NCBI GenBank assembly: GCA_902793635.1
Contig: CADBEA010000027.1
Coordinates: forward strand, 1-35,883
Direction: 5' to 3'
From: an uncultured Erysipelotrichaceae bacterium
Lineage (GTDB): Bacteria > Bacillota_I > Bacilli_A > Erysipelotrichales > Erysipelotrichaceae
Length of the DNA: 35,883 nucleotides
Part shown: piece after piece, positions 4,986-35,275 of the stretch
Layout: every line of letters begins with the position of its first letter
Numbering within the stretch: the first letter of the stretch is position 1
Notes under the pieces: generated by a model
Databases searched by the model: none
Seen by the model: only the letters and a program-made list of their open reading frames with translations
What the model was told of the DNA's origin: nothing
Translations under genes and position numbers: made by a program

Positions 4986-5969
4986 ATGGGATTCATATCT
5001 TTCAATGAAAACTACTATCGCAGAAAGCTGGAAGATTATGAGAATAAGATTCTTTCCGATGCAGAAATCTGTGAAGCAAAACAGCTCCTGAAAGTTCTGG
5101 ATGATCTGACCGATGAGGGATATACAAATCTGAATGACAGGATGGAAGCAGATTTCTCCTGCTTAACAAGGCTGAGAGCTGTTCTGCACCGATACGGGGA
5201 AGTCCCCTTCCCGATCGATCATGAAAAGTTGTCAGATACCTCTTACGGAAAGAATGAGTATGAACTTGAGGAAGTGCTTGAAAATCTGATTGAAGAAGCA
5301 AAAAAACACAGCAGTGTTTCCGCCAATCCGTTCCTTGAAGAAATATACAGGTACTGTGAATGGATCGGATATGAAGAAGATACTGCCTATGTTTTTCTGA
5401 TGCGGGATGCATTATTGCCGTATATATTCTTTCGCAGCAGAGGCAGAGACAATATCTGCCCCTTGCTGATCAGCCGCCGCTTTCTGGAAGACATCACGGA
5501 AACGGAATATGTGGATGATGATATACGCCTTCCTTTATACGAAGCACTGGAATCCGGTCATGTCCGGTTTGATGATTACTCTGCTTACTGCAGGGAGAGA
5601 ATACTTCCGGTTCTGAATGAATATCCGGAATTGAAAACCATTCTTCTCGATCTTCTGGGTTCGATCAAACAGAACAGGATCGTTGTGATTGAATCTGGCT
5701 ATATGGGAACCATTCCCATGATGCTGAAAGCTCTGGATGACAGAGTGGACTTCAGACTGTTCACGACAGCGCCTTTCCTGTATGAAACCTATCAGGGCAG
5801 AATATTCTGCCGAAAATATGAAGATATCCGCAGATTTGAAACATTATATTCGCAGGATCTCTTCATGCAGTATTCTTCGTATCGCAACGGGAAGTTCTAT
5901 GTGAATGTATCCGCAGAGGAATCGGTGAAGGAAAAAACAATTTCAGAAACAACAAGATTGATGAGGTGA
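4986..5969 (+). CDS. Uncharacterised protein, possible HAD-like/glycan-associated family
   Basis: A 327-residue soluble protein. Start set at ATG 4986 because GAGG stands 6 nt before it, rather than the upstream GTG at 4974. The N-terminal ~110 residues are helical and acidic. In the centre, AYVFLMRDALLPYIFF followed by PLLISRRFL resembles the FLxRDG...YLxxSRR pattern of HAD-like proteins found with surface-polysaccharide genes. Later, IVVIESGYMGTIPMML resembles their second motif (VDxGWxGT). The residues are only partly conserved, so the call is tentative. The stop is 6 nt from the Vat-like gene, so the two share a transcript, probably driven by the module promoter. Confidence 0.5.
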   Translation: MGFISFNENYYRRKLEDYENKILSDAEICEAKQLLKVLDDLTDEGYTNLNDRMEADFSCLTRLRAVLHRYGEVPFPIDHEKLSDTSYGKNEYELEEVLENLIEEAKKHSSVSANPFLEEIYRYCEWIGYEEDTAYVFLMRDALLPYIFFRSRGRDNICPLLISRRFLEDITETEYVDDDIRLPLYEALESGHVRFDDYSAYCRERILPVLNEYPELKTILLDLLGSIKQNRIVVIESGYMGTIPMMLKALDDRVDFRLFTTAPFLYETYQGRIFCRKYEDIRRFETLYSQDLFMQYSSYRNGKFYVNVSAEESVKEKTISETTRLMR

Positions 5970-5975
5970 CCAGAG

Positions 5976-6638
5976 ATGAAAAACGGAAAAAAACCAGACC
6001 CGGATGTGGTCCATCCGATTGCAGGATATGACAAGGAAATTTACGTCAAACCGACATTAAAGAATCCGAATATCATTGTCGGAGATTTTACTTACATTGC
6101 AGACTCAGAATTTGAGAGTCATGTGACAAGCTTTTACCCCTGGAGCAGAGACAAGCTGATCATCGGGAAGTTCTGTCAGATCGCAGCAGGTGTCGAGTTC
6201 GTGATGAATGATGCCAATCACCAGATGAATACTGTAACGACATTCCCGTTCTATACACTTGAAGGATGGGAAATGAACGCTCCCGATCCGTCCGAAATGC
6301 CGTTCAAGGGAGATACTGTGATCGGCAATGATGTGTGGATCGGGCAGAATGCCGTGATCCTTCCCGGTGTTCATATCGGAGACGGAGTCATCATCGGCGC
6401 GAACAGTATTGTCGGCAGTGATGTCGAACCTTATACGATCGTCGTCGGAAATCCCGCAAAACCTTTGCGGAAACGCTTTGATGATGAGTTGATCGATCTC
6501 CTGCTTCGTTTCAAATGGTGGGACAAGAGCATAGAAGAAATTAACCAGCTGATTCCCCTTCTGACCTGCAGTGAATTGGATAAGGTCAAAGATCGATTCT
6601 CCGTTGTTGTGGAAGATCAGGTCATCAATCATCGGTGA
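5976..6638 (+). CDS. Vat/XAT-family acetyltransferase (left-handed beta-helix)
   Basis: A 220-residue protein with RBS GAGGTG before the ATG. It aligns along its length with streptogramin A acetyltransferases: N-terminal PDPDVVHPIAGY, KPTLKNPNIIVGDFTY, DKLIIGKFCQIAAG, the catalytic-His segment NDANHQM (H82), then hexapeptide repeats (VIGNDVWIGQNAVILPGVHI, GDGVIIGANSIVG), NPAKPLRKRF and a final WW-containing helix. This family moves an acetyl group from acetyl-CoA to a hydroxyl on an antibiotic (streptogramin A, or chloramphenicol in the CatB branch). The hexapeptide core is complete, so the enzyme should be active. The substrate is inferred only. A terminator follows 47 nt downstream. Confidence 0.82.
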   Translation: MKNGKKPDPDVVHPIAGYDKEIYVKPTLKNPNIIVGDFTYIADSEFESHVTSFYPWSRDKLIIGKFCQIAAGVEFVMNDANHQMNTVTTFPFYTLEGWEMNAPDPSEMPFKGDTVIGNDVWIGQNAVILPGVHIGDGVIIGANSIVGSDVEPYTIVVGNPAKPLRKRFDDELIDLLLRFKWWDKSIEEINQLIPLLTCSELDKVKDRFSVVVEDQVINHR

Positions 6639-6684
6639 AAATACGTGCGATATCCGTGTGGGATCCGTGAAGCACACTACATAC

Positions 6685-6709
6685 AAGGCTCTTAATCCAG
6701 GAGCCTTTT
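6685..6709 (+). terminator. Terminator opening repeat-module copy 3
   Basis: AAGGCTC (6685-6691) pairs with GAGCCTT (6701-6707) and is followed by TTCTCTT. It matches the copy 2 terminator at 4655 in sequence and in its distance to the promoter. Confidence 0.8.
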
Positions 6710-6725
6710 CTCTTGCCAGATTACA

Positions 6726-6780
6726 TACCGCAGACAGATACCGATGATGATCTGCAGGCGGTATAATATTTTTTATGGAG
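6726..6780 (+). promoter_or_regulatory. Inverted repeat, promoter and SD of module copy 3
   Basis: TACCGCAGACAGAT (6726-6739) pairs with ATCTGCAGGCGGTA (ending 6763), overlapping TATAAT at 6762-6767. A ribosome site (TGGAGGTG) follows just before the ATG at 6788. Relative to copy 2 the arms have paired substitutions that keep the symmetry. Confidence 0.65.
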
Positions 6781-6787
6781 GTGTCTC

Positions 6788-6989
6788 ATGAACGGAAAAT
6801 ACCAGCCCGGACAGAAAGTCTTTCTGACCGGCGGGAACAAGAACCTGATCAAGGAAGCAACCGTTCTGAAGTACACAAGGTTTCTATACGATCCGCTTTG
6901 ACAGCGGTGGTGGTATCAAAGTCAGAGAGTCCAGGGTCTACCCTTCACGTGAAGAAACTGAAGCAGCGATCCTGAATAGATCTCTATAA
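6788..6989 (+). pseudogene. SH3/KOW-like small gene, copy 3, frameshifted
   Basis: The first 31 codons match the intact copy. At the TYR/GLY codons around 6877 two bases are missing compared with copy 2, and the frame then hits TGA near 6899-6901. The rest of the copy, through the EAAILNR-equivalent codons and TAA at 6987-6989, is still recognisable. The indel falls at the same point where copy 1 is split by the MBL gene, and the local sequence (GTACACAAGG) equals copy 1 with its insertion and both direct repeats removed. A longer ORF in another frame here is a shadow. Confidence 0.75.
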
Positions 6990-7029
6990 TCGGGATTTGT
7001 CGAACTCATTTTTGAAGGAGAAGATTGAG

Positions 7030-7509
7030 ATGGTTATCAGAGAGTATACGCAAAACGATATATCAGATATGATTCGGATATGGAATGAAGTAGTTGAGGA
7101 AGGCATCGCTTTCCCCCAAGAAGAGTGTCTGAACATAGAAACGGGCACATCTTTCTTCGCATCCCAAAGTTACACCGGAGTAGCTGAGGAAGAAGGAGTT
7201 ATATTGGGGCTATACATTCTACATCCCAACAACGTGGGCAGATGCGGGCATATTTGCAATGCCAGCTATGCTGTATCGTCAGAGATACGAGGAAGACATA
7301 TTGGTGAGAAGCTGGTTATGGATTGCCTGAAAATGGGCAGAGAACTGGGCTTTCGAGTACTTCAATTCAACGCTGTCGTCGAAAGCAACACCCATGCGCG
7401 GCATCTGTATGAGCGGTTAGGATTTACTCAACTCGGCACAATACCCGGAGGCTTCCGTATGAAGGACGGGCATTATGAAAACATATGCCCTTATTATCAC
7501 GAGCTGTAA
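7030..7509 (+). CDS. GNAT N-acetyltransferase, phosphinothricin-acetyltransferase-like
   Basis: A 159-residue single GNAT domain. Start at ATG 7030 is supported by AAGGAG at 7015-7020; an upstream in-frame codon at 6997 has none. N-terminal MVIREYTQNDISDMIRIWNEVVEEG resembles the Pat/YncA type. The acetyl-CoA-binding loop is RGRHIGEKLV, and the late HARHLYERLGFTQLGTIPGGF segment is typical of motif B. It transfers acetyl from acetyl-CoA to an amine, here unknown. It lies 41 nt downstream of module copy 3 and is probably transcribed from that promoter. Confidence 0.82.
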   Translation: MVIREYTQNDISDMIRIWNEVVEEGIAFPQEECLNIETGTSFFASQSYTGVAEEEGVILGLYILHPNNVGRCGHICNASYAVSSEIRGRHIGEKLVMDCLKMGRELGFRVLQFNAVVESNTHARHLYERLGFTQLGTIPGGFRMKDGHYENICPYYHEL

Positions 7510-7557
7510 TACAACTTCCCGTTTCACTGTGACGACAGAGTGGCTGAAAGAGAAAAA

Positions 7558-7626
7558 ATGATAAGAAAAGTAATGCATCAGGATATCCCTGCCTGTGTCG
7601 ACATAATAAAAAAGAGTTTAATATGA
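7558..7626 (+). pseudogene. N-terminal stub of a second GNAT acetyltransferase
   Basis: An ATG at 7558 opens 22 codons with MIRKVMHQDIPACVDIIKKS, the usual first beta-strand and helix of a GNAT domain, then stops at TGA 7624-7626. The rest of the gene is missing and the ankyrin gene begins 54 nt later. This is a deletion remnant, more evidence of turnover in this region. Confidence 0.55.
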
Positions 7627-7679
7627 TTTGTGAAATTGCCGGAGAAAAAACAAATCATAATTCAGGAAGGTGAAACGAC

Positions 7680-8366
7680 ATGAAAAAACTGTTTACTGCT
7701 ATAAGAGCATCTGACCTTGAAATGGTAAAGCAAATCATTGAAAAGAAACCTGAACTGGTAAATTGTGTTGCAAAGAAGCCGCCTAAGAAGGATGACGGGC
7801 AATCGCCTTTGCAGGTTGCGCTCAAAACGGGAAATACTGCAATCGCCAACTACTTACTGGATATGGGTGCGGATGTGAACTTTATCGAGGATGAGACCTG
7901 CTGCAACGCATGGAGAACGCCGGTGCTTCATGATGCGATCAACTGTGCTGTGATGTCATGCAGGTGGAATACAGATGATAAATATACGGGCTTCCGGGTT
8001 TTCTCGACAAAAGAGAGAGCTGTTGAAGCACTCGCTGTTCTGAAACGAATGCTTGATATGGGAGCAGATGCAAACGCACTTGATTCCTACGGCAATTCAG
8101 GATTAAACCGTTTTGCACTGCAGGCAAAGCAGATATTGCCATCATACAATTATGTGGAACATCGTGAAGGAAAAGATCGGATCTTTACAGAGGAATTGCA
8201 CGAAGATCTCAGAAGTGTGTTGCAGGCATTAAAAGACGCCGGAGCAGACGATTCTTACAAAGCTCCGAATCTCGGTTATTCCGTCAGAGAATTCTGCAGT
8301 GAAGGATCCATTTCGATCCTGTTTGATGAAGTGTTTGGATGCGACATAGCAATTGAGACGATATAG
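7680..8366 (+). CDS. Ankyrin-repeat protein
   Basis: A 228-residue soluble protein with AAGGTG-type RBS before ATG 7680. Repeat units are visible at residues 1-30 (FTAIRASDLEMVKQIIEK), ~43-70 (SPLQVALKTGNTAIANYLLDMGADVN), ~80-90 (TPVLHDAINCAV), ~118-145 (AVLKRMLDMGADANALDSYGN) and ~185-200 (LRSVLQALKDAGADDSY). Ankyrin repeats bind other proteins; no enzymatic domain is attached. AAATCATAATTC and an ACAAATC motif precede its RBS, as after the repeat modules. It is followed by two hairpins. Confidence 0.8.
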   Translation: MKKLFTAIRASDLEMVKQIIEKKPELVNCVAKKPPKKDDGQSPLQVALKTGNTAIANYLLDMGADVNFIEDETCCNAWRTPVLHDAINCAVMSCRWNTDDKYTGFRVFSTKERAVEALAVLKRMLDMGADANALDSYGNSGLNRFALQAKQILPSYNYVEHREGKDRIFTEELHEDLRSVLQALKDAGADDSYKAPNLGYSVREFCSEGSISILFDEVFGCDIAIETI

Positions 8367-8412
8367 ATAGAGTCAGCAAATTCCTGTTTTTCGCTGAATC
8401 ATAGCTTCTATC

Positions 8413-8447
8413 AATCTCCTTTTACATAGCCATGTGGAAAGGAGATT
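8413..8447. repeat. Dispersed CTCCTTTT...AAAGGAG hairpin, copy A
   Basis: AATCTCCTTT (8413-8422) pairs with AAAGGAGATT (8438-8447). The core CATAGCCATGTGG is shared in part with two other hairpins at 16164-16201 and, in inverted form, 35683-35727. The stems are alike beyond what a generic terminator needs, so this is probably a small repetitive extragenic palindrome. Confidence 0.55.
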
Positions 8448-8496
8448 TGAGGAAGACTTCCTGCTCAGGGATTCCATTACGTTATATGTTTTAACT

Positions 8497-8528
8497 GAGA
8501 AGTACTGTACTGAAGTACTTCTCTTTTT
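8497..8528 (+). terminator. Intrinsic terminator downstream of the ankyrin gene
   Basis: GAGAAGTACT (8497-8506) pairs perfectly with AGTACTTCTC (8514-8523), followed by five T. It ends transcription of the plus-strand cassette run. Confidence 0.88.
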
Positions 8529-8593
8529 GATGCTGACTGCAGCGTTGAGGTCCCTCTCATGTACCGTTCACTCTTTAAAGACAAAACCGCATG

Positions 8594-8621
8594 AAAAAGG
8601 ATTCTCTGTCAAAGAGAATCC
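8594..8621 (-). terminator. Intrinsic terminator of the pyrophosphatase gene
   Basis: On the minus strand GGATTCTCT and AGAGAATCC form a perfect 9-bp stem with a 5-nt loop, followed by five T. It lies about 135 nt past the pyrophosphatase stop codon. The rest of the 8367-8755 gap holds no supported gene. Confidence 0.85.
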
Positions 8622-8755
8622 CGCAAATGATATATGTCTGCTTAACCCGGTCAATTTCCACGGCAGTTCTGCTTTTGAACGGGCTGCATACCTGTATTTG
8701 CCGCTATGCTTACTTTACGCAAATATCAACAATCCTGTCGCGCATGAATGCTCGT

Positions 8756-9886
8756 TTATTCGTGTGGATACTGTCCAAGGAAATCGGTCAGTCCCGGCAC
8801 CAGTTTGGTCTTGCGGCCAAGTCCCTGCCGGAAGATATAGGATGTGCCGTCAAACTCATCATAATCCGGGAAGGCTGCTTCAAAGACTTCCTTTGAATGT
8901 TCATCGGCACAGACAATATAGTCAATCTTGACGCCTTCTTCACGGATGCTTACTTCAGCATACATCAGTTCCACATCTTTCTGGCTGTGTCCTTCCGGAA
9001 GTACTTTCGCAAGCCGCTTTGCCAGCTCTGCCGCGTGTTCTTCATCGATTGCGTTGGCCAGTGCAATGCCGAATTTCACGCCGGATGCCTCATAGGACTT
9101 ATAATCAGACAGCAGGATGTCCAGGTCGCTCATTCCTTTATAGGACAGCTTTTCTGCGTATATTGCCTTGTAGAAGCCTGTCGTGTCTTCTACGCCGCAG
9201 ATCCTGCTCAGTGCAGCAACTGCTTCTTTGTCAGCACTGGTGGTGTACGTGGTTGTGAGATTTGCATTGTCGGAAAGGATCGCACCCAGCAGGATATGCG
9301 CTGTAGACTTGTCGATCTCCACGCCGTAGTTCAGATAATTCAGCCAGATGATCGTCGCGGTGGCGCCGATCGGTCTTGCGTTGTAATACACAACATTGCC
9401 GGTCGTAACACTGCCCACGCCATGATGATCAATAATGCCGATGATATGCGCGTCTCTCATACCTTCCGCTGCCTGGCTGTATTCACTGTGGTCTACCAGC
9501 AGGATGTCTTCCCCGGATACATCATCCAGTACCGGCGGTACTTCCACGCCTGCCTGTTCCAGTATATACAGGCTTTCCAGATCCGCTTCTTCTGACAATG
9601 CCGGTTCGGCATGATAGCCGAGGGCATTCATCAGTCTGGCGCAGGCAATGGCACTCACGACAGTATCCGCATCCGGACTTCTGTGTCCGATCACATAGAA
9701 TTTGTCTTTTGTGATATCCAGATGTTCCAGTTCGCTACGGTTCAGCATATGCAGTGCTTCCTGCTCTTTTTCTGCTGTTTCCTTTCCGCTCTGCTGGCCT
9801 TTACTGTAACCAGACGTATAGGATATATAACCGGTTCCCGCCGCCAGCAATACGGCCAGCACGCCCGTAAGTATTTTCTTATTCAT
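8756..9886 (-). CDS. ppaC: Family II (Mn-dependent) inorganic pyrophosphatase with N-terminal membrane anchor
   Basis: A 376-residue protein. The DHH/DHHA2 core is complete: GHRSPDADTV (67-76), DHSEY (131), IGIIDHHGVGS (DHH 152-154), and near the C-terminus QGLGRKTKLVPGL for the Arg-Lys pair that binds substrate phosphate. It hydrolyses pyrophosphate to phosphate using Mn or Co. Members are normally ~310 residues and cytosolic. Here the first ~60 residues are extra: MNKK, a hydrophobic segment at ~5-25, then a hydrophilic linker (SGYSKGQQSGKETAEKEQE). This suggests a membrane-anchored, possibly extracytoplasmic form. A good AAGGAG lies upstream of this ATG, supporting the long start. It is monocistronic. 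Confidence 0.88.
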   Translation of the reverse strand: MNKKILTGVLAVLLAAGTGYISYTSGYSKGQQSGKETAEKEQEALHMLNRSELEHLDITKDKFYVIGHRSPDADTVVSAIACARLMNALGYHAEPALSEEADLESLYILEQAGVEVPPVLDDVSGEDILLVDHSEYSQAAEGMRDAHIIGIIDHHGVGSVTTGNVVYYNARPIGATATIIWLNYLNYGVEIDKSTAHILLGAILSDNANLTTTYTTSADKEAVAALSRICGVEDTTGFYKAIYAEKLSYKGMSDLDILLSDYKSYEASGVKFGIALANAIDEEHAAELAKRLAKVLPEGHSQKDVELMYAEVSIREEGVKIDYIVCADEHSKEVFEAAFPDYDEFDGTSYIFRQGLGRKTKLVPGLTDFLGQYPHE

Positions 9887-10107
9887 ATTCCATTTTCTCC
9901 TTGCTGTCTTTGGATCATTGTATGATTCTGCAGTTCCTGAAACACAGAATTCCGATTCCCTGCTGATTCAGAATGGATAAAACAGAAACCGGAGCTTTTT
10001 TTAGATTCACGATCTGTTTGCAGGCCGTTCATACATCAGAATTCATTATAGTATCCTTTCCTTTTAAGGTCTGCATTAAGATGCAGACAAGACTCCTGTC
10101 CATTGAT

Positions 10108-10208
10108 GATCTGCAGGCGGTATAATATTTCCGGAAGTCATCCTGGAAAAGAACGCAGGATCTGCCCTGCCCGCAAGGAAGCGGCATTCCTGAACAGACA
10201 GAGACAGG
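10108..10208 (+). pseudogene. Repeat-module remnant, copy 4
   Basis: GATCTGCAGGCGGTATAATATTT, with TATAAT at 10121-10126, is near-identical to the copy 3 promoter. The 67-residue gene is then almost wholly deleted: sequence from about 10155 (GCAGGATCTGCC, CGCAAGGAAGCGGC, CCTGAACAGA) matches only its last ~50 bases. The next gene, a GNAT, starts 29 nt later and may use the surviving promoter. The rest of the 9887-10237 gap holds nothing I can identify. Confidence 0.6.
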
Positions 10209-10237
10209 CAAAGAAGAATTTGAAGAGGTAGTGATAA

Positions 10238-10720
10238 ATGCTTCATTTGGAAAAAATAAATGGCAGTAATGTCTGGGATATCCTTAAACTGACCGTATCC
10301 GAATCGCAGAAGAACTATGTTGCGGCCAATGACATCAGCATCATCGAAGCATATACTGCAATTGCTGGAAATGGCTATGCATTTCCGTTTGGTATCTATG
10401 ACGATGAAAAGCCTGTGGGATTTTTAATGATTGGCTTTGACGTCGATGACTATTGGACGGATGCTCCTGAAATCGCAAAAGGAAACTATAATCTCTGGCG
10501 TCTTATGATTGATCAGGCATGGCAAAACAGAGGATATGGGAAAAAGGCGGTTCAGCTTGCACTGGACTTTATTAAATCTATGCCATGCGGAAAAGCTGAA
10601 TACTGCTGGCTGTCGTATGAACCTGAAAATGAAGCGGCACGTCAGCTGTATCAGTCTTTCGGCTTTGCGGAAACCGGTGAAATGGATGGTGACGAACGGA
10701 TTGCTGTTCTGCGTCTCTGA
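10238..10720 (+). CDS. GNAT N-acetyltransferase, BltD/spermidine-acetyltransferase-like
   Basis: A 160-residue GNAT domain. Features resembling Bacillus BltD-type polyamine acetyltransferases are the N-terminal VSESQKNYVAANDISIIEAY, the FGIYDDEKPVGFLMIGFD strand pair, the LWRLMIDQAWQNRGYGKKAVQ acetyl-CoA loop and the final ARQLYQSFGFAETGEMDGDE. It would acetylate an amine, perhaps a polyamine; substrate inferred from family likeness only. GAGGTAG precedes the ATG. It sits directly after a module remnant, as the GNAT at 7030 sits after copy 3. Confidence 0.82.
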   Translation: MLHLEKINGSNVWDILKLTVSESQKNYVAANDISIIEAYTAIAGNGYAFPFGIYDDEKPVGFLMIGFDVDDYWTDAPEIAKGNYNLWRLMIDQAWQNRGYGKKAVQLALDFIKSMPCGKAEYCWLSYEPENEAARQLYQSFGFAETGEMDGDERIAVLRL

Positions 10721-10834
10721 TGCACAGCGCATGCAAAGCAGACTGCCGTTCTGAAATGCACCGTAGGTTTTGTTCGGTTTTTACTCCGCAGATACGTATT
10801 TGCTTATCTATATTGAACAAAGGAGTCACTTCAG

Positions 10835-11584
10835 ATGGAAAACAACACAATACCTGAAAAAAAAGCAGGACTGAGCGGAAATGCACTGAAACTGATTGCC
10901 ATTATTGCCATGACAATCGATCATCTTGCCTGGATGGGAATAGAAACCTATGCTCAGGCAGAAACTCCCGTTCAGATTTCCCTTCATATTATCGGACGTC
11001 TGACGGCTCCAATCATGATTTTCTTTATCGCGGAAGGATATCATTACACACATCACTTCGGAAAATATCTGAAAAGAATGGCAGTGCTGACCGTTATCAG
11101 TCACTTTGCCTTCTGCTATTTCAACCAGTCGGGATTCAATCCCCTGACGAACCTGACATTCAATGCCACCAGCATTGCCTGGCCTTTGATGTGGGGACTG
11201 ATTCTGCTGAAAGTCTGGGATACGGAAAAATGGAATACCTGGCTGAAGGTACTGATCACCATGGCCGGCTGTGTCCTGACATGTACATCGGACTGGAGCT
11301 GCGCCGCACCGCTTGCCATTCTGTTTATGGGGCGTAATTACGGGAACTTCGACAGGCAGATGCTCTGGCTGATGGCTTTCACGGCATTGTATGCTGTTGC
11401 GTTCTTCATCGTACACAGCCACGTCTACGGAATGATCCATATGGCCTGCTGGTTTGCCGTTCCCCTTCTGTATCTTTACAATGGTGAACGCGGAAAATGT
11501 CGGTGGCTGGGCACCTTCTTCTACTGGTATTATCCCGTCCATATGCTGATCATCGGCATCATTTCCCGGCTCTTAGCATCCTGA
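10835..11584 (+). CDS. TraX-family membrane protein
   Basis: A 249-residue multi-pass membrane protein with RBS AAAGGAG. It starts with a short hydrophilic tail then LSGNALKLIAIIAMTIDHLAWMG, the TraX hallmark with the Asp-His pair, followed by IIGRLTAPIMIFFIAEGYHYTH, a set of about seven hydrophobic helices, and a closing TFFYWYYPVHMLIIGII. TraX in F plasmid acetylates pilin; the wider family is related to membrane acyltransferases and is common in Firmicutes chromosomes, where the target is unknown. The His-Asp and Tyr-Pro-His residues expected of the fold are present. Confidence 0.85.
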   Translation: MENNTIPEKKAGLSGNALKLIAIIAMTIDHLAWMGIETYAQAETPVQISLHIIGRLTAPIMIFFIAEGYHYTHHFGKYLKRMAVLTVISHFAFCYFNQSGFNPLTNLTFNATSIAWPLMWGLILLKVWDTEKWNTWLKVLITMAGCVLTCTSDWSCAAPLAILFMGRNYGNFDRQMLWLMAFTALYAVAFFIVHSHVYGMIHMACWFAVPLLYLYNGERGKCRWLGTFFYWYYPVHMLIIGIISRLLAS

Positions 11585-25146: not shown

Positions 25147-25644
25147 ATGACGCAGCAGATCATTTTGCTGAATGGACCTTCCAGCAGCGGAAAGTCCACA
25201 TTGGCCAGAGCATTGCAGACTCTTATTTCAGATAAGTGTTCGGAACGATATGAAATTGTTTCGATCGATGATTTTCTGAAAATGTCAACGGAAGAACCGA
25301 TCTATGAAGATGATGTTTTCGAAATATCGGATGATCTTTGTTCTAAGGTTCAGGAAATAACAAACGCAGGTACCGGTGTGATCATCGATCATGTGATTAC
25401 CAGTGAACGTATTTTTGAGCATCTGAAGAATCATCTGACATCCAGCCAGATACGGCTGGTGCGCGTCAGCTGCCCTTTGCGGCTGTTAAGGGAAAGAGAA
25501 CTTGCCCGCGGGAACAGACCTCCCGGATCTGCGGAAGCCTCGGAAGAATATCTGTTTCCAAAGAACGGATATGATCTAACTGTCGATACCGGATCGAAAT
25601 CACCTGCGGAGAATGCTCTGCTGATCTTCGAAACTTTTTTCTGA
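25147..25644 (+). CDS. Chloramphenicol-phosphotransferase-like P-loop kinase
   Basis: A 165-residue single-domain P-loop kinase. The Walker A motif is NGPSSSGKST (residues 9-18). A DDF pair follows in VSIDDFLKM, then GVIIDHVIT. The basic LRLLRERELARGNRPPGSA stretch and YDLTVDTGSKSP near the C-terminus match the order of motifs in chloramphenicol phosphotransferase (Cpt) and its relatives. Cpt phosphorylates the chloramphenicol primary hydroxyl; many relatives have other or unknown substrates, so resistance is only a hypothesis. GAAAGTGAG upstream provides a moderate ribosome site. Confidence 0.75.
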   Translation: MTQQIILLNGPSSSGKSTLARALQTLISDKCSERYEIVSIDDFLKMSTEEPIYEDDVFEISDDLCSKVQEITNAGTGVIIDHVITSERIFEHLKNHLTSSQIRLVRVSCPLRLLRERELARGNRPPGSAEASEEYLFPKNGYDLTVDTGSKSPAENALLIFETFF

Positions 25645-28053: not shown

Positions 28054-28196
28054 TCACATCATACGAACTGTGCTGAAAAAACAGATATACTTAGTATAAG
28101 AATGCCCAGGCGGATCATGATCTCAGCCTGCGTATACAATTCCATGCAAGCAAACAATGACCGCTGATGATCGATCCAGCAAAAAAGGAGTTCCCT

Positions 28197-28682
28197 ATGA
28201 AGCGTTTCGGATTTATCTACGACCAGAAAAAATGCATCGGCTGCAATGTCTGCCAGATGGCATGCAAGGACAAAAACAACCTGGAAATGGGACTGTTTTT
28301 CCGCCGCACTGTTACGCTGGAAAGTGATGAGAATCCTCCTAGGTATTTTCATTTTTCCGGTGCCTGCATTCACTGCGACGAGGCGGAATGCATCAGACAC
28401 TGTCCGACCGGTGCCATGTACCGGAAAAGTGACGGAACTGTCGGCCACCGGAAAGAAAAATGCATCGGCTGCGGAATCTGCACCCGGGTCTGCCCGCAGG
28501 CTGCACCGAAACTCAGTTTCCGCGACGGCCGCAGTGCCAAGTGCAACGGTTGTGCCGACTTGCGGGCTATGGGAAAGAACCCGGCATGCGTCGACGCCTG
28601 TCTGACTCACTGTCTGCAGTTTATTGACTATGAAACTCTTGGTGAAAACCGTGAAAGAAAGGCAGAATACCCATGGGAATGA
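28197..28682 (+). CDS. DmsB-like four-cluster iron-sulfur subunit, cytoplasmic
   Basis: A 161-residue ferredoxin-type protein. AAAAGGAG precedes ATG 28197, so an upstream in-frame start at 28167 is not used. Sixteen Cys make four 4Fe-4S sites: C13-x2-C16-x2-C19-x3-C23; C57, C60, C65, C69; C89, C92, C95, C99; C116, C119, C131, C135. The last site (CNGCADLRAMGKNPACVDAC) is the DmsB/NrfC style. No Tat signal and no TM segment, so it acts in the cytoplasm. It overlaps the next gene by 10 nt, and should pass electrons between the flavin and molybdenum parts of that protein. Confidence 0.88.
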   Translation: MKRFGFIYDQKKCIGCNVCQMACKDKNNLEMGLFFRRTVTLESDENPPRYFHFSGACIHCDEAECIRHCPTGAMYRKSDGTVGHRKEKCIGCGICTRVCPQAAPKLSFRDGRSAKCNGCADLRAMGKNPACVDACLTHCLQFIDYETLGENRERKAEYPWE

Positions 28683-31600
28683 AATATGTAATTATCGGCG
28701 GCGGCATTGCCGGTGTAAGTGCCGCGGAAACGATCCGGGCAAATTCTTCCGAAGCGGAAATCTGCATTCTTGAAGCGGGTGAAGACAGACCTTATCTGCG
28801 TCCCCTTCTCAGCAAGACGGACATCAAGTATCTGAATGCCGGAAACATCGCACTTCATCCGACTGAATGGTATGAAAGAAAACAGATTCAGCTGAAGACC
28901 GACTACGCTGTTACTTCCATCCATGCGGATGAGCATTTTGTAACATGCCGGGACGGCAGCCGGATCTCTTATGACAAACTGATCTGCGCCCTGGGTGCTT
29001 TCGCGGCGGTTCCGCCGATTCCCGGTGCGGATCATAAAGGTGTGCATACCGTACGCAGTATTGCCGACATGAAGAGAATCCACCGTGATATGGCCTTTGC
29101 GGAAAATGCTGTCGTGGTCGGCGGCGGCGTGATCGGTGTGGAACTCGCGGAGGAACTGAAGGCAGCCGGTGTGAATGTCACAGTATTGGAACTGGCGCCG
29201 AAACTGCTCGGCCGCTTTATGGACGATGAAAGCGCCGCTGTGTTCAAAGACCGTCTGGAAGCACAGGGAATCCACAGTTTCACCAGCGTTTCGGACATTG
29301 TGATCGAAACCGGTGACGATGACCGTGTCAATACTGTCACAGCGAAGATCAGCGGCGAAAGCAGTTCATTCGCGGCAGATCTGGTGATCCTTTCCTGCGG
29401 CATCCGGGCGGATGTGAAACTGCTGCAGGAAGCCGGTGCCGAATGCGGACGAGGAGTCGTTGTCAATCAGGGCATGGAGACGAGTCTTCCGGATGTACTG
29501 GCAGCCGGTGACTGCATTCAGTGGAATCCGAATCCCGGTCTCTGGAGTTTTGCCGAACAGAGCGGTATCGCTGCCGGTCTCAGCGCTGTCTATGGCGCTG
29601 AATCCGAAGAAGTCAGGAATGCCCGGTTATATAACGGCGGCGAACTGATCTTCTCCGGCCGCCATGTGTTTGTGTATTCCTTCGGCGACGTTTCCGAAGA
29701 AGGAATCAGGACAGTATTCGAACCGGATCACCGTATCCACTATCAGGTCAATCCGGCAAATCCTGCTGAACCATATGAAAAACTCTTTTATCAGAACGGC
29801 AAATTGTGCGGTGCCATCCTGATCGACGCCCCGCAGCATCTTGCTGATATCCGAAACACGCTCTGGGGACAGATGGGCATGACACCGGGAGCGTCGCAAA
29901 AACAGCTGCCGAGATCCGTCTGGCTGCTGGCGGCGGATTTCTTCGCCGACCGTGAAAAAGCAATGCGGCTGCTGAAACTGCTGCCGGAGTGGGCAGAACA
30001 CACAGAAGAAGAATGGCAGCTCGAATACGATTTCCTGTTCCGCGGCTGCGATGCGGATTTCAAGCCGTCTCTGTGGGCTTCGGTCTGCTTTGACGAGCGC
30101 ATTCTGTGCAATCAGACAACACTGGAAGTGATCAAACGATACTATGCCGACGGTTACCGGCCGGTCCGTATGGAAGGCAATCCGCCGGATTATATCGGTG
30201 AACAGTACCGTTATCTCTATTATCTGACCTGTGCCGGAAATCAGAAGCACAGTGATGAATTTGCTGGTGATTACACTCTGGAAAACCAGAAGCTACTGCT
30301 GAAAGAACTGAAAAAACGCGGCACTTTCCAGGCTTTCATCACCATCAGCGATCACCTTCTCCATGTGCTCGGCGGCCGCTGCGATACATCTCTGTCCTCT
30401 TTTGCCAGAGCACTCGGCATTGAAAACAGAACCGCCCAGATCTGGGATATCCTGAAGTCGTCTGCTGAAGAGTTCATTGACATCACCGAGGACGGTCCTT
30501 CCCCTGCCATCGCACTCGAGGAACCAAGAGTTGTTCTGAGTGGCGGCGGCAATAACTGCGGCGGCAAATGCGTGATCCGGCCGACGGTACAGGAAGGCTG
30601 TATCCTGAAGATCGAATCCGATCTTTCCAGCAATGATCCGCAGATCCGCGCCTGTGTCAGAGGCAGAGGCTACCGGAAGACATTCCTTTCTCCGGACCGG
30701 CTGCGGTATCCGATGAAGCGCATCGGCGAACGCGGCAACGGTAAATTCCGCCGCATCACCTGGCAGCAGGCAGCCGATGAAATATCCCGGAAATGGATCC
30801 GTATCCGCGATACCTACGGACCGGGTTCCCGCTATGTCAACTACGCGACCGGTGTCACCGGCGTCATGCGTCCTTCCAGTCTTGCCAAGCGTCTTTTGGC
30901 AGCGGACGGCGGGTATCTGGAATCCTACGGCAGTTACAGTTCCGCCTGTGCTTCCTACATTGCGCCTTATATCTTCGGCGACATATTTTTCGGCAACAGT
31001 CCGGCGGATATCCTGAATACGAATCTGGTCATCTTCTGGGGCGACAATTCCACCGAAACCATCTTCGGTTCGGAAAGAAACTACTACCTTTCGAAGCTGA
31101 AGGAAAAGAATATCCGCATCATCGCCATCGATCCCCGTCTTTCACAGACGGCCATCACATATGCGAACGAATGGATCCCGATCCGGCCGACTTCCGACGC
31201 AGCTCTGGCGGATGCCATGGCATATACGATCTTCCAGGAAGGTCTGCAGGATCAGGCATATATGGACAAATACTGCATCGGCTTTGACGAACAGCATATG
31301 CCGGAAGGTGTCGGGCCGAACGAAAGCTACCACAGTTATCTCTTCGGCCTGCAGGACGGCATCGAACGCACGCCGGAATGGGCGGAACCGCTCACCGGTA
31401 TTCCGGCCGACAAGATCCGCAGTCTGGCCAGAGAATTCGCAGCCGCAAAACCCGCCTGCATCATCAGCGGCTACGGTATACAGCGCACCGGCAATGGTGA
31501 ACAGGCAGTCAAGGGAATCGCAACCCTGGCGGCGATGACCGGCAATATCGGCATCTCCGGCGGCAATGCCGGCGGCTGCGGCATGACCCGTGAACATGCC

Positions 31601-32743
31601 GGCCCGCCAAATGCCATGCCCAAGATCGATAACCCGTATAAAGGTGCGATCTCGATCTTCCTCTGGACGAAGGCAATCGAGCACGGCGCCGAAATGACCG
31701 CCCGCAATGACCGTGTCCACGGCATGGACAAGCTGGATGCCAATGTCCGGATGATCCTGAATCTGGCCGGCAACACACTGATCAACCAGCATTCCAATAT
31801 CGCTGATACGATCCGTATTCTGAAAGATGATTCCAAATGCCAGCTGATTGTCTGTTCGGATATCTTCATGACACCGAGTGCCCGCTATGGCGACTATGTC
31901 CTGCCCGGTACGTCAGTCTTCGAGACGGACAACATCAATGCGCCATGGCGCGGCAGTAACTACCTTCTGCGCAACAACAAGGTCATTGAACCCCTCTTCG
32001 GAACCGTGTTCGAATGGGAGTGGCTGAAAGACATCGCCAGAAACCTCGGTCTCTACGAAACATTCACCGGCGGCCATCCGGAAGCGGACTACTGGCTGCG
32101 AGCAACTTACAACGCACTGCGTAAGAAAGAAAAGGAACTGCCGGATTACGATACCTTCTCCGCCCTTGGCGGCTGGCAGTACAGACAGCCGAAGATCTAC
32201 ATCGCCTTCGAGGAACAGATCAAGGATCCTGAACATCATCCGTTCAAAACACCCAGCGGCAAGATCGAGATCTTCTCCAAAACACTGTATGACATGCATC
32301 TGGAAGATGTCCCGGCCGTGACCCGCTATATCTCCTGTCCGGAAGGACCGGATGATCCGCTGCAGAAAAAATTCCCTCTTCAGCTCATCGGCTGGCATAC
32401 CAGACGCCGTACCCATTCGATGCATGACAACAATGAATGGGAAGACGAAGTTGAAAAACCGGGTCTCTGGATTCATCCGGAAGATGCTGCAGCCAGAGGA
32501 ATCGCCGACGGTGATGATGTCCGCATCTACAATGACCGCGGCACTGTCATCATTCCGGCTGTTGTCACGAGACGGATCATGCGCGGCGTTGTGGCAATGT
32601 CACAGGGCGGCTGGTATACACCTGACCAGAACGGCATTGACCGGCGCGGTTCGATCAATGTCCTGACCAGTTCCGCTTATCCCACACCTCTGGCCAAGGG
32701 AAATCCCCAGCACACCAATCTGGTCGAAGTCACAAAAGCCTGA
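28673..32743 (+). CDS. Triple fusion: NAD(P)H/FAD oxidoreductase - TorD/DmsD-like chaperone - DMSO-reductase-family molybdopterin catalytic domain
   Basis: One 1356-residue ORF. Residues 1-400: FAD GGGIAG (9-14), NAD(P) GGGVIG (150-155), AAGDC (277-281), as in NirB/rubredoxin-reductase-type enzymes. Residues ~410-600: a TorD/DmsD-like helical domain with EYDFLFRGC, STLEV-like TTLEVIKRYY, and PPDYIGEQYRYLYYL (504-518) in place of the PDHIxxELEFxxYL chaperone motif. Residues ~620-1356: a DmsA-type domain with CGGKC (C629, C633) and C661, YSSA (Ser 756/757 as Mo ligand), GWHTRRRTHS and the C-terminal beta-barrel (SQGGWY). The first cluster Cys is Gly. No Tat signal. It follows the iron-sulfur gene with overlap, so NAD(P)H-to-acceptor electron flow is likely. 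Substrate unknown. Confidence 0.85.
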   Translation: MGMKYVIIGGGIAGVSAAETIRANSSEAEICILEAGEDRPYLRPLLSKTDIKYLNAGNIALHPTEWYERKQIQLKTDYAVTSIHADEHFVTCRDGSRISYDKLICALGAFAAVPPIPGADHKGVHTVRSIADMKRIHRDMAFAENAVVVGGGVIGVELAEELKAAGVNVTVLELAPKLLGRFMDDESAAVFKDRLEAQGIHSFTSVSDIVIETGDDDRVNTVTAKISGESSSFAADLVILSCGIRADVKLLQEAGAECGRGVVVNQGMETSLPDVLAAGDCIQWNPNPGLWSFAEQSGIAAGLSAVYGAESEEVRNARLYNGGELIFSGRHVFVYSFGDVSEEGIRTVFEPDHRIHYQVNPANPAEPYEKLFYQNGKLCGAILIDAPQHLADIRNTLWGQMGMTPGASQKQLPRSVWLLAADFFADREKAMRLLKLLPEWAEHTEEEWQLEYDFLFRGCDADFKPSLWASVCFDERILCNQTTLEVIKRYYADGYRPVRMEGNPPDYIGEQYRYLYYLTCAGNQKHSDEFAGDYTLENQKLLLKELKKRGTFQAFITISDHLLHVLGGRCDTSLSSFARALGIENRTAQIWDILKSSAEEFIDITEDGPSPAIALEEPRVVLSGGGNNCGGKCVIRPTVQEGCILKIESDLSSNDPQIRACVRGRGYRKTFLSPDRLRYPMKRIGERGNGKFRRITWQQAADEISRKWIRIRDTYGPGSRYVNYATGVTGVMRPSSLAKRLLAADGGYLESYGSYSSACASYIAPYIFGDIFFGNSPADILNTNLVIFWGDNSTETIFGSERNYYLSKLKEKNIRIIAIDPRLSQTAITYANEWIPIRPTSDAALADAMAYTIFQEGLQDQAYMDKYCIGFDEQHMPEGVGPNESYHSYLFGLQDGIERTPEWAEPLTGIPADKIRSLAREFAAAKPACIISGYGIQRTGNGEQAVKGIATLAAMTGNIGISGGNAGGCGMTREHAGPPNAMPKIDNPYKGAISIFLWTKAIEHGAEMTARNDRVHGMDKLDANVRMILNLAGNTLINQHSNIADTIRILKDDSKCQLIVCSDIFMTPSARYGDYVLPGTSVFETDNINAPWRGSNYLLRNNKVIEPLFGTVFEWEWLKDIARNLGLYETFTGGHPEADYWLRATYNALRKKEKELPDYDTFSALGGWQYRQPKIYIAFEEQIKDPEHHPFKTPSGKIEIFSKTLYDMHLEDVPAVTRYISCPEGPDDPLQKKFPLQLIGWHTRRRTHSMHDNNEWEDEVEKPGLWIHPEDAAARGIADGDDVRIYNDRGTVIIPAVVTRRIMRGVVAMSQGGWYTPDQNGIDRRGSINVLTSSAYPTPLAKGNPQHTNLVEVTKA

Positions 32744-32762: not shown

Positions 32763-32803
32763 AAAGGATCCTGTTCTCAACACCTGGGGACAGGATCCTT
32801 TCT
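32763..32803. terminator. Bidirectional terminator between the convergent Mo operons
   Basis: AAGGATCCTGT (32764-32774) pairs with ACAGGATCCTT (32790-32800) around a loop with TCAACACCTGGGG. A/T runs lie on both sides, so it can serve the fusion gene on the plus strand and the SUOX-like gene on the minus strand. Confidence 0.85.
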
Positions 32804-32831: not shown

Positions 32832-33320
32832 TTATTCGATGATAATTGTTTTCAGACATCTTACCTGCCGTTTGGCATTGGCATCACCGTAAACGACAAG
32901 CTGCGCACCCTGACCGCCGTCTATGCTTTCAATCATTTCATTGTCAGACATAACAGCGACATAAACTTTACTGCCGGTCATGATTTCCACACCGGTCAGT
33001 TCTGCTGTGTAATTGTCTTCCGATACAGCTGTGATTTTTGTGTCTTCCTTGATTTCAATTCCACTGTCATTGAAAAGTGTCAGCAGTTCTGTCCCCTGAT
33101 ATTCATGGTTCGAAGTTTCGCCCTTGCCATTGACGATTTCTCCTGAAAAGACTGTCTGATTGAGATCTTCCCAGCTGACCGTCAATGTGTTTCCATTGGC
33201 TTCAATGATCAGACCGGTTTTTTCCGGCGCATTACCTCTGACTTTTACCGCCAGTATGACCGCAGCGATGACAAGGATCGCAGCGATCACTGCCATGATG
33301 TATTTTGTCTTTTTATTCAT
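32832..33320 (-). CDS. Membrane-anchored SUOX-fold-like small protein
   Basis: A 162-residue protein; start at ATG 33318-33320 because AAAGGA stands upstream and the next residues form an anchor (YIMAVIAAILVIAAVILAVKV). After it, a beta-rich domain has TVSWEDLN, HEYQGTELLTLFNDSGI, ITAVSEDNYTAELTGVEI and QLVVYGDANAKRQVRCLKTIIIE. The order of these segments matches the tail of the oxidoreductase molybdopterin-binding (sulfite-oxidase) fold, but the domain is short and without the cofactor Cys. It may be a non-catalytic relative. It is the last gene of the MobA operon, 29 nt after the ECF-S-like gene. The fold call is by pattern only. Confidence 0.55.
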   Translation of the reverse strand: MNKKTKYIMAVIAAILVIAAVILAVKVRGNAPEKTGLIIEANGNTLTVSWEDLNQTVFSGEIVNGKGETSNHEYQGTELLTLFNDSGIEIKEDTKITAVSEDNYTAELTGVEIMTGSKVYVAVMSDNEMIESIDGGQGAQLVVYGDANAKRQVRCLKTIIIE

Positions 33321-33349
33321 ATAATGATTCCTTTCTGAATGAACTGATG

Positions 33350-33898
33350 TTACTCGGCTATCGTTTTTCGGGTTCTGTACAGCGGCCTGATTCTTTTGTA
33401 AATAACTGCGGAGAGAAGACCACACGCACCGCCGCTGATCAGAGCAATCAGCAGATACAGCGCAAGCACTGCCCCGCGCAGACGGAATACGATGAAGTTT
33501 GCTGTCAAAGCTGCTATCAGGGAACCGGCCGCATTTGCGGATGTCATTGAGATCAAAAGATCCGTATTATATCTTTCAGATAATGCAATGACAAGATCGA
33601 TGACGATGCCCGGCAGGATATAGCCGATCGGTGACATCATTCCCATCGCTCCGGTCATTCCCAGCGACATGGCAAGGATGCACTGGACAAGACTCATCAC
33701 CGTGGCAGAGCCCTTTCTTCGGATCATGCATGCGCCGATGACCAGAAACATCAGGGAAAAAGCCGTTCCGATGCCTCCCGGCACACGCAGAAAATCTGTA
33801 AGGACATTGGCAAACGGTGCGATCAGACGTTTTGAGACGAAACCTATATCGGCGAAAAATGCCAGCAGGATCAGATCCCGTACATTGATTTTTTTCAT
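33350..33898 (-). CDS. ECF-transporter S-component-like membrane protein
   Basis: A 182-residue protein with five or six hydrophobic segments. MKKINVRDLILLAFFADIGF at the start and LRVPGGIGTAFSLMFLVIGACMI, LTGAMGMMSPIGYILPGIVIDLV-like stretches resemble S components of energy-coupling-factor transporters, and more remotely YkoE. S components bind a vitamin or metal and borrow a shared ATPase module, not seen in this window. It overlaps the mobA stop by 4 nt (ATGA), so they are coupled. That suggests a molybdenum- or cofactor-related substrate, but this is inference. Confidence 0.65.
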   Translation of the reverse strand: MKKINVRDLILLAFFADIGFVSKRLIAPFANVLTDFLRVPGGIGTAFSLMFLVIGACMIRRKGSATVMSLVQCILAMSLGMTGAMGMMSPIGYILPGIVIDLVIALSERYNTDLLISMTSANAAGSLIAALTANFIVFRLRGAVLALYLLIALISGGACGLLSAVIYKRIRPLYRTRKTIAE

Positions 33899-35088
33899 TG
33901 CCGGCCCTCTTTCCTGTCCATGTACAGCGTTTTTAACTGTTCATAAACTTCATCGCGGTTTGTTTCATCCAGTTCGATCAGCCGGACATTTTCATGACTG
34001 CGTACCGCTTCCAGAAAAGGTGTTGAAAAGTTTTTGGCTTTGATCGCCGCAAGTACCGGGATATTGCTGTCGAAGGCTGAAAGTACAGCTTTCTGAAACT
34101 GTTCCGCCTTCTCTTCTATAAAACCGATCTCATCCATGATGATCAGTTCCTTTTTGGAAGCGGCGTGAATCAGCTGTGTTCCGTATGTGTCAAATACTTC
34201 TGGGTGCACTTCCTTTACACCGTTCATGGTGATGCCGCACAGTTTTCCGTTTTCCCGGGCAAGCGTATCCTGATCCCCCGGATCATAGATAAATGAGGCC
34301 GGATACATGCAGATTTCTTTGTATCCTTTTTCTTTGTTGAAAACCGCCCGTGTCAGATAACCGCCGGCCGGACACTGTATTTCCTTCACCAGTTTACGGA
34401 TCAAGGAGGATTTTCCCGCTCCTCTTTCCCCCTGCAGAATAATGTGTTCCGGTCTGTATGCCGTTTGTTTTACAAGGGCTTCGTAATCAGCGGGCGTGTT
34501 GACGTTGAACAGCATCCTGTCCTGTTCTGCATTTTCTGTCCGGACAAAGACCGTTTTCAGATTCGGGTGTCTGATCAGAGACATCAGTCTGTAATCATGG
34601 CTATTGATCAGATCTTCTGCTGCATCAATGACACTGGTGCGGTAGTATCCGGTTGTCGGATGCATTCTTCCATCGGAAGACACCAGGATATAAATGTCTG
34701 CATGCGGGCTGGTTTCTGCTGCATTTGCGATCAGCTCAAAGAGTTCTGTTTCAAACAGCGGCAGATCCACAGGAACCGTGTAAATACCGTCCAGTCCGTC
34801 CCTGACACATTGTTTCAGTCCGGTGTAAATTCCTCCCAGCGGTCCGATGAAGCCGCCGCTGTCATCACACACCTCGTCTTTGAGGGCAATAAAGTCTGCG
34901 GGAATCTGCTCGTCCGTGCTTGCCAGCGACAGATACCACGGCATGGTTGTGTGTCTGATCTTCGCGCAGATGATTTCCAGAAAACTCTGATCATGCCAGA
35001 TCAGTTTTGCCTTGTCACGTTTCATGCGTCCGGATCTTCCTCCGCAAAGGATCAGGCATCCGGATTTCTTTCTGTTATTCTCATTCAT
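33895..35088 (-). CDS. mobA: MobA-THEP1 fusion (molybdenum-cofactor guanylyltransferase plus nucleoside-triphosphatase)
   Basis: A 397-residue protein; ATG at 35086-35088 has GGAG 6 nt upstream, and a longer ORF start lies in the leader hairpin. Residues 1-205: MobA, with LILCGGRSGRMKRDKAKL (nucleotide loop), GPLGGIYTGL, VPVDLPLF and NVNTPADYEAL; it adds GMP to molybdopterin. Residues ~212-397: a THEP1-type NTPase with Walker A GERGAGKSSL (220-229), GGYLTRAV and Walker B LIIMDEIGFIEE. In other bacteria MobB, a different P-loop protein, partners MobA; here THEP1 seems to take that place. First gene of the minus-strand operon. It likely matures the cofactor of the fusion enzyme. Confidence 0.85.
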   Translation of the reverse strand: MNENNRKKSGCLILCGGRSGRMKRDKAKLIWHDQSFLEIICAKIRHTTMPWYLSLASTDEQIPADFIALKDEVCDDSGGFIGPLGGIYTGLKQCVRDGLDGIYTVPVDLPLFETELFELIANAAETSPHADIYILVSSDGRMHPTTGYYRTSVIDAAEDLINSHDYRLMSLIRHPNLKTVFVRTENAEQDRMLFNVNTPADYEALVKQTAYRPEHIILQGERGAGKSSLIRKLVKEIQCPAGGYLTRAVFNKEKGYKEICMYPASFIYDPGDQDTLARENGKLCGITMNGVKEVHPEVFDTYGTQLIHAASKKELIIMDEIGFIEEKAEQFQKAVLSAFDSNIPVLAAIKAKNFSTPFLEAVRSHENVRLIELDETNRDEVYEQLKTLYMDRKEGRQ

Positions 35089-35275
35089 GTATTTCTCCAC
35101 CCTGTCCTTTACGGATGACTCTGTAAAAAACAAAAAAGCACCACGTGAAAAACACTTTTGCGGTGCTGTTTTCACGCTCTTTTTTTCAAATACGGAAGGC
35201 TGAAACGTTTCCCTTTCAACCCTTTGGAACAGTGATCCCGGCGCAATACCATGCTGTTTTATGGTTTAGGTATTT
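35089..35275 (-). promoter_or_regulatory. Structured leader with terminator/antiterminator before mobA-THEP1
   Basis: On the minus strand four arms occur in the order A, B, A', B'. CGTGAAAA (35176-35169) can pair with TTTTCACG (35151-35144), and AGCACC (35167-35162) with GGTGCT (35142-35137), the latter followed by six T. The pairs cross, so only one can form: B-B' is an intrinsic terminator, A-A' blocks it. Upstream, AAGGGTTGAAA pairs with TTTCAGCCTT and AATACC with GGTATT. This layout fits a riboswitch or protein-controlled attenuator; a cofactor-sensing Moco-type RNA is an attractive but unproved choice. Confidence 0.6.

Follow-up and report, generated by a model that had tools for sequence, protein, structure and literature searches.

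A single open reading frame (ORF) in the window, the whole 35,883-nt stretch of DNA analyzed in this study, joins an FAD/NAD(P) oxidoreductase domain, a TorD/NarJ-family domain and a DmsA-type catalytic domain on one chain (table 1). The encoded protein is fairly likely to be a soluble cytoplasmic NADH-linked bis-MGD enzyme of the DMSO reductase family, with its chaperone and its NADH dehydrogenase fused to the catalytic domain. The domains are known ones in a new combination, and an intermediate of the combination was found.

Table 1. Positions of the fused gene, its domains and motifs, and the neighboring features in the window.
Feature	Position (nt)	Strand	Evidence or remarks
DmsB-like ferredoxin subunit, 161 aa	28197..28682	+	Four [4Fe-4S] Cys motifs; 10-nt overlap with the fused gene
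Whole fused gene	28673..32743	+	1356 aa; architecture shared by 12 genomes
FAD/NAD(P) oxidoreductase domain, residues 1-395	28673..29857	+	NirB / ferredoxin reductase / rubredoxin reductase type
TorD/NarJ-family domain, residues ~410-605	29900..30487	+	PF02613, hhalign, dN/dS
TorD signature NPPDYIG, residues 503-509	30179..30199	+	Aligned with EPDDHLG of stand-alone TorD (hhalign)
DmsA-type catalytic domain, residues 623-1356	30539..32740	+	TIGR02166
FS0 cluster motif, residues 625-661	30545..30655	+	G625 for the first Cys; C629, C633 and C661 kept; C643 invariant
Ser756, Mo-ligating serine position (YSS / DYS motif)	30938..30940	+	Alignment
Intrinsic-terminator-like hairpin, 17-bp stem	32763..32801	+	3' of the fused gene
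Membrane-anchored small protein	32832..33425	-	Weakly like a sulfite-oxidase-type molybdopterin-binding domain; PF00174 below cut-off
ECF-type membrane component (PF09819)	33350..33898	-	Same convergent cluster, synteny
MobA-like guanylyltransferase fused to THEP1-type NTPase	33895..35175	-	PF12804 + PF03266; TIGR02665 E 1.6e-25, below cut-off

The Fused Gene Is Conserved in Twelve Genomes

The window comes from a 2.4-Mb MAG that is 95% complete. An initial annotation had proposed the three-part protein at 28673-32743 on the plus strand; the ORF lies exactly there, and domain scans with Pfam and NCBIfam found all three domains where they had been placed. The annotation had also raised the recurrence of the architecture elsewhere and an assembly error as points on which the proposal would turn. 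The architecture is present in 12 out of 70 genomes of the genus (Solobacterium, ruminant gut), with 73-94% identity over the aligned length; the named records among these genomes are mostly Solobacterium MAGs of goat, sheep and rumen origin. Two of the 12 orthologues are cut by contig ends and the other ten span the whole frame without an internal stop, which excludes an assembly error as the source of the ORF. That separate genes were joined by misassembly or a frameshift might be suggested by a distant clostridial genome (locus L076, described below) in which the flavoprotein and the TorD-DmsA part are separate genes, but the same frame without internal stops in twelve independently assembled MAGs, with synonymous divergence up to saturation, leaves this explanation a vanishingly small probability. 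The fused gene is real because a dozen related genomes share it and a distant genome has a half-fused form.

The dN/dS ratio among the orthologues is 0.10-0.21 for the FAD domain, 0.09-0.22 for the TorD domain (0.04-0.22 for its core, residues 445-525) and 0.03-0.10 for the catalytic domain, and purifying selection acts on every domain of the fused protein. Since the nonsynonymous rate lies well under the synonymous rate, the TorD domain is maintained. Separate release of TorD-DmsA from an internal start is not supported, Met404 being a leucine in two of the orthologues (L014 and L015).

The Middle Domain Belongs to the TorD Family

Residues 431-539 match the Pfam family Nitrate_red_del (PF02613, TorD/NarJ family; E 6.9e-7, 29.8 bits against a gathering score of 22.2), and the match is above cut-off in all 12 orthologues. 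In hhalign comparisons the fused domain matched 14-17 stand-alone clostridial TorD proteins (97.2%, E 4.3e-11, 101 columns) and the TorD part of L076 (99.6%, E 1e-24). The Pfam score above the gathering threshold and the independent hhalign match together bear out the TorD identity that had been proposed for this domain.

The canonical TorD signature is EPDDHIG. Six residues of the corresponding motif in the fused protein (N503, P504, D506, Y507, I508 and G509) are invariant across all 12 orthologues, and DH is changed to DY. The domain is divergent, and the segment N-terminal of the core motif lacks ~30 residues relative to stand-alone TorD. Because the fused TorD is divergent and shortened, a loss of its chaperone activity is possible. 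Within the genus, PF02613 was found in 12/12 fusion genomes, always within the fusion, and in 0/58 other genomes (Fisher p 9e-14, for genomes that are related to each other); the scan of the 70 genomes detected no stand-alone TorD.

AlphaFold2 reached a pLDDT of 58 for residues 395-622 and of 41 for residues 395-1356 from shallow alignments in which only eight similar sequences were usable, and the low-confidence model of the TorD region is all-helical. A Foldseek search with the 395-622 model (pLDDT 58) gave no PDB match, a result that is not evidence against TorD, and a profile of eight Solobacterium TorD domains matched no TorD when compared with the PDB by sequence.

The Catalytic Domain Is of the DmsA Type and Has an Altered FS0 Motif

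The C-terminal part belongs to the DMSO/selenate reductase A family (TIGR02166 dmsA_ynfE, NCBIfam; residues 617-1356, 884.3 bits against a cut-off of 777.7) and contains the Pfam domains Molybdop_Fe4S4 (PF04879, residues 628-668), Molybdopterin (PF00384, residues 676-1123, E 2e-49) and Molydop_binding (PF01568, residues 1236-1348, E 5e-29). Its identity is 44-50% to other DmsA proteins and 60% to L076, and the fused protein is the sole PF00384 protein of its genome. Ser756 is invariant in the 12 orthologues and aligns with the serine found in DmsA and in the Rhodobacter-type DMSO reductase; judged from this alignment, it marks an active site of the predicted S/N-oxide reductase type.

The four-Cys FS0 motif of canonical DmsA is incomplete in the fused protein, with G625 in place of the first [4Fe-4S] cysteine. 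Gly or Ala occupies this position in one DmsA clade (L124, L140, L131, L075 and L076), Tat-exported members included. A loss of the cysteine caused by the fusion was rejected, as the unfused and Tat-exported L124 and L140 of the same clade share it, and because the trait occurs in several such unfused members it does not exclude membership in TIGR02166. With the first FS0 cysteine missing, electrons may reach Mo in another way than in DmsA. No S/T-R-R-x-F-L/I motif occurs anywhere in the protein, whose N-terminus is the FAD domain, in agreement with the earlier view that the client has no Tat signal.

A Flavoprotein Domain and a Probable Ferredoxin Partner

The FAD/NAD(P) domain is a full-length match to Pyr_redox_2 (residues 3-298, Pfam, E 9e-59). 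Both dinucleotide-binding GxGxxG motifs are present (residues 9-14 and 150-155), a CxxC disulphide is absent, and the PDB matches include 3lxd, 3klj and AorC (8c0z_E, E 1.5e-29). An acidic residue, E173, follows the second Rossmann strand in the alignment, and the domain sequence suggests NADH, not NADPH, as the predicted donor.

The DmsB-like gene upstream has an ATG start behind an AAGGAG site, in an ORF that opens at 28167. Its product matches TIGR02951 (DMSO_dmsB) with E 4e-42, below cut-off; the best PDB match is 2vpw_B, a polysulfide-reductase-type B subunit (E 1e-25), and AorA was also matched. The ORF overlaps the start of the fusion likewise in three related loci (L021, L023 and L027), and the gene is kept upstream of the fusion in the related loci inspected, also in the half-fused relative L076. 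Because of this overlap and its retention in relatives, the DmsB-like protein is the probable wire between FAD and Mo. The fused enzyme had been expected to take electrons directly from NAD(P)H: NAD(P)H is likely to be the source, but a direct transfer through the enzyme's own domains only is improbable given a DmsB-like partner whose gene overlaps the fusion.

The hairpin behind the fused gene indicates that the operon probably consists of two genes. Only these two precede the terminator, and no DmsC-like ORF is present among the annotated neighbors in the window. The minus-strand cluster that faces the operon (32832-35175) possibly takes up a pterin or a compound of molybdenum, and its MobA-like member is predicted to supply cofactor. 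The cluster is kept in L021, L023, L024, L026 and, as far as the contig extends, L022; it is not kept in L027. Elsewhere in the window, positions 25147-25644 (plus strand) encode a chloramphenicol phosphotransferase-like protein (PF07931, E 9e-27).

Cofactor and Quinone Pathways in the Fusion Genomes

The genome that contains the window encodes MoaA, MoaC, a MoCF-domain protein, a MobA-like protein and an XdhC-type factor. Across the 12 fusion genomes, G041 and G026 among them, a scan for MoaA (PF06463) was positive in four and negative in eight, although several of the latter are >90% complete; these eight may salvage a cofactor precursor, have a MoaA that is divergent, or be gapped MAGs. A UbiA-family prenyltransferase (PF01040), the sole quinone-pathway marker searched, was over cut-off in 0/12 fusion genomes versus 14/14 control genomes, and its absence makes a quinol-linked reductase unlikely. 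The lack of an adjacent DmsC, of a Tat signal and of UbiA in the 12 genomes together suggest a quinone-free soluble reductase.

Two further multidomain frames were observed in the same genome. One, adjoining MoaC, combines a MocA-like NTP transferase and a TylF-type methyltransferase domain (L157, C21, 11252-12805, minus strand), and the other combines a flavodiiron protein, a rubredoxin and an NADH:rubredoxin reductase in 840 aa (L002, C5, 1450-3972, minus strand).

Half-Fused Relatives and the Origin of the Fusion

TorD was found in 78 out of 398 genomes in a sample of one clostridial phylum, nearly always as a stand-alone protein (~170-300 aa) and twice within frames of ~1000 aa. The closest relative of the three-part fusion that was found is one of these, L076 of the distant clostridial genome G870 (6496-11238, minus strand), where a DmsB-like gene, a flavoprotein gene (435 aa) and a TorD-DmsA fusion (957 aa) follow each other with overlapping ends. 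The other is L075 of the clostridial genome G541 (5495-9121, plus strand), where a 1025-aa protein joins TorD to DmsA, a DmsB-like gene comes next, and no flavoprotein gene adjoins. G541 also carries two stand-alone TorD. Among the 20 proteins of the clostridial sample above the TIGR02166 cut-off, L075 and L076 are the only TorD fusions.

In a phylogenetic tree of the catalytic domain (FastTree, 730 columns) L076 is sister to the three-part fusions (support 1.0), and L075 groups with the unfused L124 and L132 (support 0.99). A single origin of all TorD-DmsA fusions was rejected, as L075 is placed away from L076 and the three-part fusion; since L075 and L076 fall apart in the tree, the TorD-DmsA fusion arose at least twice. 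The flavoprotein of L076 groups with rubredoxin reductases (0.92) but shares with the fusion an insertion (VNP...PY/PH.K.F) that the rubredoxin reductases do not have. From the gene order and the catalytic-domain tree, the L076 arrangement is likely to represent an intermediate of the three-part fusion, which would follow from an L076-like arrangement by the loss of one gene border.

Outside the TorD-rich Actinomycetota, the survey for fusions extended to plasmid records, the order of G870 and a Pseudomonadota sample. Plasmid records contained separate genes only (<60% identity), the order of G870 yielded no additional case, and among the matches listed for the Pseudomonadota no TorD open frame was long enough for a TorD-DmsA fusion. 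Of two long Pseudomonadota frames that were checked, one was a TorD continuous with a ferredoxin-type frame upstream of it, and the other was a spurious high-GC frame. In genome G692 a TorD follows, by eye, a receiver-like stretch of ~100 residues in the same frame (L078, 7472-8671, minus strand) and may be another TorD fusion.

Comparison with Known Systems

The DmsABC and YnfEFGH systems, with their separate chaperone DmsD, likewise combine a TIGR02166 catalytic domain, a DmsB-like partner and a chaperone of the TorD/DmsD family. In contrast to these, the fused system has no Tat signal, adjacent DmsC gene, predicted quinone pathway or first FS0 cysteine, and its chaperone and NADH-type flavoprotein are fused in cis. 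The L076 operon has the same DmsB-like, flavoprotein and TorD-DmsA components and differs from the three-part fusion in its separate flavoprotein gene. The TorD, DmsD and NarJ maturation proteins, which give the middle domain its family and its likely job, are separate proteins in the known cases.

The N-terminal FAD/NAD(P) domain is shared with NirB-type nitrite reductases and NADH:rubredoxin oxidoreductases, which feed siroheme or rubredoxin and not a bis-MGD enzyme. The NAD-linked tungsten aldehyde oxidoreductase AorABC (PDB 8c0z) likewise combines a NirB-like FAD/NAD subunit, a four-cluster ferredoxin and a pterin metal enzyme. In the Aromatoleum enzyme the FAD of AorC exchanges electrons with the four-cluster polyferredoxin AorA, which is wired to the W-pterin, and the cited distance from the FAD to a cluster in AorA is 9.5 Å (PMC10413684). 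Unlike the fusion, AorABC has the AOR catalytic fold with W-bis-MPT, consists of three separate subunits, lacks a TorD and usually works in the opposite direction.

TorD, which also interacts with MobA, binds the core of apo-TorA and promotes insertion of Mo-bisPGD even when the signal peptide is missing (PMC10609526). Members of the family bind the enzyme core as well as the signal peptide, and the decisive contact and the location of the core site are still debated (PMC10609526). The words "fusion" and "fused" are absent from a 2015 survey of the TorD family (PMC4464133), and no natural TorD-client fusion was found in a literature search that covered few subscription journals and is therefore weak evidence of absence. 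An engineered NapD-NapA fusion also has its chaperone N-terminal to the bis-MGD client; it differs from the TorD fusion in being artificial, in the NapD fold, which is unrelated to TorD, and in a client with a Tat signal (PMC4159696). This laboratory fusion was soluble, apparently with Fe-S, and shows that a bis-MGD enzyme tolerates an N-terminal chaperone (PMC4159696).

Proposed Mechanism and Alternative Explanations

For the fused enzyme we infer a path from NADH through FAD and 4[4Fe-4S] to Mo-bisMGD without a quinone step. NADH would reduce the FAD of the N-terminal domain, and single electrons would then travel through the four clusters of the separate DmsB-like partner, and possibly an altered FS0, to Mo-bisMGD. 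The cofactor would take an oxygen atom off a substrate that is presumably an S-oxide, an N-oxide or an oxyanion, and NADH would thereby be reoxidised in a fermenter that is predicted to have no quinone. The TorD domain would occupy the usual place of the Tat signal peptide and its bound chaperone; acting in cis, it would keep the apo-catalytic domain open and protected until the insertion of bis-MGD supplied by the neighboring MobA-like enzyme, and would remain attached in the mature enzyme. A more far-reaching version, put forward tentatively, is a self-maturing bis-MGD enzyme that unites loading, quality control and NADH supply on one chain plus one ferredoxin, with TorD as a part of the finished enzyme that contacts the mature catalytic domain and perhaps gates electron entry or cofactor reloading.

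The direction of electron flow could be the reverse, with a dehydrogenase that reduces NAD+ instead of a terminal reductase. AorABC, the closest mechanistic analogue of the arrangement of FAD and polyferredoxin, does reduce NAD+ (PMC10413684), but the catalytic domain scores above the DMSO/selenate reductase cut-off and has the Mo-serine position of S/N-oxide reductases, and a soluble NADH sink would benefit a quinone-less fermenter; an oxidative enzyme is thus improbable. It is also rather unlikely that TorD was exapted as a scaffold that has no role in cofactor insertion but brings the DmsB-like protein and the FAD domain into contact with the catalytic domain. Such a role would agree with the position of TorD exactly between both redox domains and with its shortened N-terminal part and diverged motif. 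It agrees less well with L076, where the TorD-DmsA chain has no FAD domain, and L075, which has no adjoining FAD gene, since both retain a fused TorD; moreover, the genus contains no other TorD for the chaperone job, and the core of TorD ranks with the more strongly constrained regions of the protein.

A simpler explanation, which has some probability although well short of an even chance, is that TorD acts once and co-translationally, like any TorD, and that the fusion merely fixes a 1:1 ratio in an already overlapping operon. The genes of L076 overlap end to end, so that the loss of a stop would suffice for a fusion, and the TorD-DmsA fusion occurred more than once. Retention of the fusion down to 73% identity does not require a selective advantage but fits one. 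This explanation differs from the preferred one solely in the contribution of the fused state.

With a client that has neither signal peptide nor export and a chaperone that is kept, the fusion would represent a natural separation of the cofactor-loading role of TorD from Tat proofreading, and it gives a natural test for the mode of action of TorD-type chaperones. The chaperone is held at a fixed 1:1 ratio and in a fixed geometry, and a chaperone-client structure is a realistic aim with the cis complex. For the ruminant-gut fermenters that carry it, the fusion suggests a variant of the DMSO reductase family that is linked to NADH and free of quinone, and a possible soluble electron sink.
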